Shown here: positions 28,826 to 30,275 of the stretch, in pieces
Position numbering within the stretch: position 1 is the first letter of the stretch
Layout of the letters: each line of letters begins with the position of its first letter
Source: Methanosaeta sp. PtaU1.Bin060
Lineage (GTDB): Archaea; Halobacteriota; Methanosarcinia; Methanotrichales; Methanotrichaceae
Assembly (NCBI GenBank): GCA_002067365.1
Contig: MVRK01000111.1
Span: forward strand, 1 to 39,361
Length of the DNA stretch: 39,361 nucleotides
Reading direction: 5' to 3'
The notes under the pieces: generated by a model
What the model was told of the DNA's origin: nothing
The model's input: only the letters and a program-made list of their open reading frames with translations
Database searches by the model: none
Translations under genes and position numbers: made by a program

Positions 28826-28840
28826 CGAAAGCTTTATAAT
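28826..28840 (+). promoter_or_regulatory. BRE/TATA promoter of the symporter gene
   Basis: CGAAAGCTTTATAAT combines a good BRE (CGAAA) with a TATA box (TTTATAA). A start site would fall near 28860, giving a leader of roughly 70 bases. The leader region contains the short inverted arms TGTCAA (from 28841) and TTGACA (near 28873), a possible operator. Confidence 0.6.
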
Positions 28841-28934
28841 TGTCAACTACTTTCCCAAGAAAAGTTTACAATTTGACAGAATCCACGAGGCCGAGACGAG
28901 ATCTAGGCATCCATGAGACAGGGAAGGTGAGAGC

Positions 28935-30275
28935 ACGGATCAATCTGGCATCATCGTAATAATCTATCTTCTCGCAATGCTGGCCATAGGCGCTAGCGGG
29001 TCGAGGATCAGGAGGCTTGAGGACTTTCACCTGGCAGGCCGCAGAATCAAGCTGCTGCTCCTCACAGGCACCTTCTGTGCATCGATCATGGGAGCCTCGG
29101 CGACCCTCGGCATGACGGGCCTGGGCTTCAGCAAGGGGCTGCCAGGGGCCTGGTGGATGCTCTCAGGAACCGCGGGCCTTCTAGTGCTTGCTGCCTTCTT
29201 CGCAGAGAAGGCGAGGGCCACGGGATGCAGCACCCTCCCGGAACTTGTAGGCTCCTTCTATGGCGAGAAGGCGAGGGTCGCAGCCTCGTTGCTCATCGCC
29301 GTCTCGTGGGTCGGCGTGATCGCTGTGCAGATTGTGGCCTCGGGAAAGGTGCTCGGCGCTCTATTCGGTGCAGATGAGCTTCTTTTCATGGCGGCCTGCA
29401 CAGCGGTCTTCGTGCTCTACACGGCACACGGCGGTCAGAGCTCAGTGGTCAGGACAGACCTGGTCCAGCTCATGATAATAGTAGTGGGGATGGCAGTATT
29501 GTTCTCCAGGGCCGTGGCAGTCGCTGGCAGAGGGCCGCTCGTCGGCCAGAGCTTCCCGGTCTCAGCGCAGATGGGCGGGACAGATGTCATATCGATGATC
29601 CTTGTAGTGGGGTCTGCGTACCTCGTCGGACCCGACATGTACGCGCGCCTCTTCTCAGCCCAGAGCCCAAAAGATGCAAAGATCTCGGCTTTACTCTCTG
29701 CGCTCATCCTCGTGCCTCTCGCGTTCCTCATCACATCCTTGGGGGTCTATGCGCAGACCCTCTACCCCGCTGCCTCGCCAGAGCAGGCGATCACTGTGCT
29801 CATGACAGGATTGCTCAGTCCCTGGGCCGAGGGGCTGGTGGCAGCAGCCCTCCTCGCTGCATTCATGTCCTCGGCCGACACGAGCCTCATGACTGCAACT
29901 TCGGTCCTGACGCTAGACATCTACAGAAAGGTGGACCCGGGGGCCAGCTCGATCAGGATTATGAGGGTCTCGCGGGCTATGGTCCTCATGATAGGAGCCG
30001 CAGCACTGCTTCTTGCAGTCTCCCTTCCCACCATCATCCAGACGCTGCTCATCGCCTACTCAGTCTTCGCCGGCGGCCTTCTCATGCCTGTGATCGCAGG
30101 ATTTTACCGGGAGAGGCTGGGCCTGACGCCCTCAGGTGCTCTCTTCGCCCTGGTGGGTGGAGGCGGAACCTCTGCCCTCATGGGCCAGAGATATCCACTC
30201 CTGGGGTTTGCGGTCTCAGCTGCTCTTCTGTTTGGAGTGAGCTGGCTGGAGAGATGGCGGCTGAAGCGAGATTGA
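28935..30275 (+). CDS. Sodium:solute symporter (SSS) family transporter, probable non-ATG start
   Basis: This SSS-family transporter has about 12 hydrophobic segments. The Na+ site helix has the family motif MSSADTSLMTATSVLTLDIY. The first recognisable ATG is at 28977 (432 residues), but it lies inside the conserved N-terminus. The same frame upstream reads TDQSGIIVIIYLLA and joins directly to MLAIGA, the usual first-helix sequence of this family. No ATG, GTG, TTG or CTG lies between the stop at 28914-28916 and 28977. An SD-like GGAAGGTGAGAG at 28922-28933 points to ACG at 28935, which would give 446 residues. No ribosome-binding site precedes the ATG at 28977. The substrate could be an organic anion, amino acid or sugar and is not predictable. 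Confidence 0.85.
   Translation, partial: TDQSGIIVIIYLLAMLAIGASGSRIRRLEDFHLAGRRIKLLLLTGTFCASIMGASATLGMTGLGFSKGLPGAWWMLSGTAGLLVLAAFFAEKARATGCSTLPELVGSFYGEKARVAASLLIAVSWVGVIAVQIVASGKVLGALFGADELLFMAACTAVFVLYTAHGGQSSVVRTDLVQLMIIVVGMAVLFSRAVAVAGRGPLVGQSFPVSAQMGGTDVISMILVVGSAYLVGPDMYARLFSAQSPKDAKISALLSALILVPLAFLITSLGVYAQTLYPAASPEQAITVLMTGLLSPWAEGLVAAALLAAFMSSADTSLMTATSVLTLDIYRKVDPGASSIRIMRVSRAMVLMIGAAALLLAVSLPTIIQTLLIAYSVFAGGLLMPVIAGFYRERLGLTPSGALFALVGGGGTSALMGQRYPLLGFAVSAALLFGVSWLERWRLKRD

Follow-up and report, generated by a model that had tools for sequence, protein, structure and literature searches.

ACG as the probable start codon of a symporter gene, rare but apparently maintained in the genus Methanothrix

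The window, by which we mean the whole stretch of 39,361 nucleotides analysed from Methanosaeta sp. PtaU1.Bin060 (contig MVRK01000111.1), contains on its plus strand a reading frame that runs uninterrupted from 28917 to a stop at 30273-30275 and encodes a symporter of the SSS family. After the TGA at 28914-28916 the frame reads GAC AGG GAA GGT GAG AGC, then ACG at 28935, then GAT CAA TCT GGC ATC ATC GTA ATA ATC TAT CTT CTC GCA, and only then comes an ATG, at 28977. A first-pass annotation had pointed out that a canonical start is missing upstream of this ATG, and we find indeed no ATG, GTG, TTG or CTG in frame from 28917 until 28977. The features of the locus, all on the plus strand, are the following:

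28833 to 28840: TATA-like box TTTATAAT, from a pattern in orthologue leaders
28840 to 28871: conserved inverted repeat TTGTMAAC-N16-GTTTACAA, a putative operator, from a pattern in 18 of 26 genus genomes
28913 to 28930: out-of-frame mini-ORF of five codons (ATG...TGA) in the window leader, ending in the Shine-Dalgarno sequence
28924 to 28930: Shine-Dalgarno sequence AAGGTGA, with a spacer of 4 nt before the ACG
28935 to 28937: ACG, probable start codon of the SSS transporter, from the orthologue column and the onset of codon periodicity
28935 to 30275: SSS/SSF Na+:solute symporter gene, 446 codons plus TGA, from PF00474, dN/dS and Foldseek
28977 to 28979: first in-frame ATG, read as an internal Met codon (codon 15), from the predicted helix 1 and the orthologue column

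The naming of the product as an SSS transporter is borne out by a match to the PF00474 profile (E 5.3e-33, 114.9 bits against a cut-off of 22.8). It scores 120.4 bits with TIGR00813, below that model's own cut-off of 184, and stays under the cut-off of every NCBIfam model listed. The AlphaFold model has a mean pLDDT of 72.5 and a pTM of 0.78, with three weak segments, and its predicted first helix spans residues 3-21, numbered from the ACG. In Foldseek the top ranks are held by CHT1, SiaT and SGLT2 at probability 1.00, with a TMq of 0.78 for CHT1 and SiaT, and a profile of the orthologues aligns with vSGLT starting at profile position 5. By these profile and model comparisons the product is an SSS/SSF symporter with a LeuT-like SSS fold, similar in both sequence and fold to vSGLT, SiaT, CHT1 and SGLT, and Na+-coupled transport is predicted.

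The SD-like motif that had been noticed before the ACG gives a duplex energy of -12.1 kcal/mol with AUCACCUCCU, where the assumed anti-SD letters were found at a 16S-like 3' end in five of the 26 genus genomes, in two places in G004, and were not found at such an end in the window's own draft. Of the proposed promoter, a TATA-like TTTATAAT begins 102 nt ahead of the ACG, and the inverted repeat sits between the TATA box and the start.

The search for orthologues covered the genome that the window belongs to and those of 40 relatives, of which 24 are from the same genus. Close orthologues are confined to the genus, with best matches at 63-76% identity among the 41 genomes searched. Once the loci were oriented by alignment, and the sister locus L043 (the same as G041) was added from a scan of named genomes, the start region could be read in 21 of the 26 genomes of the genus. 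Outside the 21 are G024, where a contig end truncates the gene, G007 and G010, which have fragments, and G018 and G005, which lack a close orthologue. Three loci without an N-terminus (L019, L023, L024) and the paralogues L025-L031 were dropped, and L251, which equals L043 over the 1300 bases compared, was counted once with it. The column of ACG 28935 holds ACG in ten genomes (the window's own L002, and L003, L008, L009, L013, L014, L015, L016, L020 and L022), ATG in eight (L004, L005, L006, L007, L012, L018, L021, L043) and GTG in one (L010), and in two the ATG is one or two codons off, lying two codons upstream of the column in L011 and at codon 2 in L017. One of the ACG rows, L020, belongs to G004, a genome in two contigs. 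Within the orthologue genes ACG makes up only 37 of 231 Thr codons (16%), so its presence in the same column of ten of the 21 exceeds chance. Among the non-ATG starts of the transporter family the ratio is ten ACG to one GTG; in relatives further away (57-66%) the start is TTG (L050), GTG (L053) or ATG (L051, L055).

The ten ACG rows show where coding begins. Counted by codon position, they differ by 0.36/0.14/0.52 over +3 to +62, whereas the values are flat, 0.55/0.58/0.56, over -30 to -1; codon constraint sets in directly after ACG 28935, and not before it. In eight orthologue pairs, each with an ACG gene, dN/dS is 0.10-0.30 (synonymous divergence is above 1 in four of them), which argues that the ACG genes are under purifying selection. 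From the upstream stop to the ACG there is no ATG, GTG, TTG or CTG in seven of the ten; the exceptions are an in-frame ATG six codons upstream in L009 and a GTG nine codons upstream in L013 and L022, none of them common to the other rows. In L014 a stop stands two codons before the ACG, and the next ATG, GTG or TTG comes only at codon 60. The first-pass annotation had left a choice between an ACG start, a mutated start codon and a missing base, and the comparison of orthologues favours the first. The mutated start codon is right in an evolutionary sense and wrong as a loss, the ACG genes having stayed under purifying selection.

On a protein tree, the ACG label needs seven changes on the best tree and at least five on well-supported branches. 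ACG is found on the first branch of the genus (L020) and on several long branches, and the simplest reading is therefore that the ancestor of the genus had ACG, and that it was replaced repeatedly by ATG and once by GTG, an ancestral state that depends on the midpoint taken as root. The sisters L014 (ACG) and L043 (ATG) have nearly identical leaders.

Shine-Dalgarno duplex energies lie between -12.1 and -6.6 in the ten ACG rows (median about -10) and between -12.1 and -2.7 in ten ATG rows of the transporter (median about -5.8), a difference with a Mann-Whitney p of 0.004 when the rows are treated without the tree. A comparison that takes the tree into account has only four supported independent pairs, about two for a stronger SD at ACG and none against, and the ATG gene L043 has an SD as strong as that of its ACG sister. 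At most, these rows hint that a stronger SD may compensate for the ACG in the transporter, and the moderate SDs of the second ACG family, described below, count against such compensation. Judged by eye, hairpins at the start do not differ clearly between ACG and ATG rows.

The exact pattern of the inverted repeat, TTGTMAAC-N16-19-GTTTACAA, is present in 18 of the 26 genus genomes, at a single place in each, and by coordinates all 18 are just upstream of the transporter gene. It is possibly a single-target operator with an unlinked regulator; among the 25 recurring ORF groups listed, no conserved neighbouring regulator was evident. We rejected an overlap with this operator as the cause of the ACG: a GTTTACG-like context occurs in just some ACG rows, and G004 has the ACG without an exact repeat, so that repeat and ACG are separable. 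In L017 the repeat arm GTTTACAA runs straight into the ATG start (GTTTACAATG), and repeat and start overlap. The leader of the transporter gene in the window is longer than in other rows. Its ATG at 28913, correctly described as out of frame, opens a frame of five codons that closes within the SD, and a coupling of this mini-ORF to the ACG was likewise rejected, as inspection by eye revealed the mini-ORF in this leader and no counterpart in the others.

ACG also stands at the head of a second gene family. Its seed is a gene of 238 codons in G004 (L278:6744-7457, i.e. G004:C1:1406744-1407457) with a signal-peptide-like N-terminus and no match in Pfam or NCBIfam. ACG is codon 1 in all 23 loci from 22 genomes (close orthologues, 61-68% identity), including the window's own genome (L347, G000:C23:39546-40256, minus strand), and not one ATG, GTG or TTG occurs between the upstream stop and the ACG in any of the 23, and L339-L341 have that stop at codon -2. 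By codon position, the rows differ by 0.27/0.09/0.41 after the ACG and by 0.48/0.43/0.45 before it. Codon 3 is Gly in 23 of 23, written with three synonymous codons, and codon 7 is Ala in 23 of 23, written with four, and since these residues are invariant while their codons vary, coding would start before codon 3. Against ACG speaks a TTG at codon 9 in 23/23 loci and at codon 8 in 17/23, and in L346 also at codon 2, but with a start at codon 8 or 9 the constrained codons 3-7 would not be translated. ACG accounts for 84 of the 413 Thr codons within these genes, and the SD energies are only moderate (-5.5 to -7.8). The family appears from its sequence to consist of secreted proteins unrelated to the transporter. 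Most of the genomes have many paralogues of it.

A wide survey of sampled stretches (756 ORFs in 320 families, with 487 ATG, 146 GTG and 123 TTG as aligned canonical starts) gave 17 ACG rows, of which eight belong to the transporter family and nine to other families, and four of the latter were taken further, among them the seed of the second family and the DUF4139 gene named below. One gene (L036:1240-1656, minus strand) has one ACG and 11 ATG among the 12 examined, for which only the hits L303-L314 were taken; another (L210:10164-10487, minus strand) has one ACG, 19 ATG and three TTG among 23, and in its ACG row, moreover, an ATG lies 13 codons upstream. L302, without an N-terminus, was dropped from these comparisons. 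In both of these genes, the ACG is limited to one species each. In a codon control on families besides the transporter, we counted CTG 8, ATA 5, ATC 4, GTC 4, ACG 3, CTC 3, fewer of others and no ACA, many of the non-ACG rows by eye sitting deep within ORFs. A scan of 393 families for shared codons found ACG in one family, the transporter, with 30 pair rows, and CAT, CAG, AGG and GCT in three families each (2-6 rows). The partial survey thus does not show ACG starts to be in general excess, and its family count for ACG does not exceed that of CTG or ATA. Of two narrower surveys, one (517 ORFs, with aligned canonical starts in 251 families) found ACG with an SD of -7 or below in the transporter family only, plus two rows with a weak SD, and recovered just five of the ten known transporter rows; the other gave the transporter only, besides five rows with a weak SD and two that belong to a single shadow ORF. 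In both, a low-complexity filter probably hid hydrophobic N-termini, and both are blind to families in which ACG is fixed. That the transporter is the sole gene with an ACG start was overturned by the wider survey and by the second family with ACG in 23 of 23, and a survey on SD alone, without orthologues, was discarded as too noisy. Two further observations come from the window's own genome: in a DUF4139 protein (L156:13232-14470, G000:C18), whose N-terminus resembles a signal peptide, an ACG preceded by an SD may be the start, and on the minus strand of L159 (G000:C40, near 11106 when counted on the reverse strand) a strong SD (-10.4) precedes a CTG that may start an ORF, where the orthologue in G004 has ATG.

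We conclude with good confidence that translation of the transporter starts at ACG 28935, and that Methanothrix maintains ACG as a start codon, though a rare one. The second family makes us slightly more confident of the ACG start, and the recurrence of ACG within the genus, together with its apparent use by at least a second gene family, goes beyond what the single window shows. The strong SD in the mRNA leader, 4 nt upstream, would position the ribosome at the ACG, and the ordinary initiator tRNA (anticodon CAU) could then sit on it, tolerating a C-A mismatch at the middle position. From this we infer the ribosome start at the ACG and the insertion of Met, which is probably the first residue. 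An anticodon stem of the initiator type (pattern GGGCTCRTAACCC, which we take to mark the initiator tRNA) is found once per genome and always with CAT in 22 of the 26 genus genomes; the four without a match are 58-77% complete, and the pattern would overlook a CGT tRNA whose stem differs. A special initiator tRNA with anticodon CGU was set aside, as this single pattern search gave CAT only. In the E. coli measurements excerpted from PMC6925171, a codon group that includes ACG gave 0.1-1.5% of the output of ATG, and a low output would thus be expected here.

The purpose of the ACG may be a low but sufficient rate of synthesis. GTG and TTG are common starts in the sampled genes and are also one mutation away from ATG. 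It is a doubtful but possible idea that ACG is kept on purpose in particular genes, either as a dedicated low-rate or conditional start that senses the state of initiation factors or initiator tRNA, or as a site of C-to-U editing of the mRNA at this one position, and that it has been maintained through the radiation of the genus.

That the mRNA is edited from C to U at the site, so that ACG becomes AUG as in plant organelles, is quite unlikely as an explanation of the start. We know of no C-to-U editing of archaeal mRNA, and among the literature matches listed there was no title on archaeal mRNA editing. Genomic ATG and ACG do alternate among the relatives, like plant editing sites, and the excerpted text of PMC9845219 describes chloroplast ACG sites that are edited to AUG, where the DNA likewise has ACG at the start and relatives have ATG. 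That is, however, a case of organelle editing, and the transporter gene bears no sign of wider editing: in its near-invariant columns no class of deviation is rarer than the one reversible by C to T, with 4 of 182 restoring changes, which argues against widespread editing and not against editing at a single site. The bases ahead of the ACG also vary, and they differ between the two ACG families.

A start at ATG 28977, or at some other internal codon, with the ACG as part of the leader, is very unlikely. It is the first canonical start, and its column is ATG or GTG in seven of the ten ACG rows, but in the other three it is no start codon (GTT in L014, ATC in L015, ATT in L020), which goes against orthologues beginning at this position, the finding that would have contradicted the earlier annotation. 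Starting there, at residue 15, would moreover delete most of the predicted helix 1, while the coding constraint begins at the ACG and the SD adjoins it. It is highly improbable that another near-cognate or upstream start is used; ATC or ATT stands directly before the ACG (at -3) in L014, L016 and L049, and L009, L013 and L022 have the upstream starts given above, but no such alternative is shared, the window has none upstream, and ACG is the sole candidate common to the ten rows. Just as hard to credit is a decaying transporter gene that has simply lost its start codon. The second copies L049 (G022) and L059 (G010), which were excluded from the tree and from the count of ten in 21, do combine an ACG at the start with a frameshifted or degraded frame, but the frames are 445-459 codons long in eight of the ten ACG rows (the remaining two end at contig ends), the low dN/dS values speak against decay, and the early stop that we found is in an ATG row, L021. 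An error of assembly or sequencing, i.e. a missing base or a T read as C, could be imagined in a draft of 136 contigs but is so improbable that it can be dismissed, the ACG being repeated at the same place and in the same frame by nine other assemblies of the genus.

An ACG start at 28935 has some resemblance to known systems. In E. coli, infC and pcnB use AUU starts, infC being an autoregulated translation factor, and they are alike in that a rare start is conserved in particular genes, and differ in the codon and in being bacterial. Eukaryotic ACG starts rely on initiation by scanning; they and the viral ones share the near-cognate ACG, whereas here the genes are archaeal, cellular and preceded by an SD. 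GUG and UUG starts come with stronger SD sequences according to the text consulted of Belinky et al. 2017 (PMC5622118), and are thus similar in being suboptimal, in often having a stronger SD and in switching with AUG among close relatives; ACG does not occur in the main text of that paper, and the mismatch of the ACG described here falls on the middle base, in certain genes in which a single genus retains it. Among the matches listed from the open-licence PMC literature we found no report of an ACG start in archaea, and in the excerpts of PMC4574771 and PMC5316973 the letters ACG appear only as part of a leader or an adapter.

The ACG start looks like a real and lasting way of starting proteins and not like a sequencing error. 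Gene finders limited to ATG, GTG and TTG would cut both short, the transporter within its first membrane helix and the proteins of the second ACG family within their signal peptide. An archaeal ACG start that is retained across a genus, with sister species carrying ATG as natural controls, would be a system for measuring start-codon choice in archaea.
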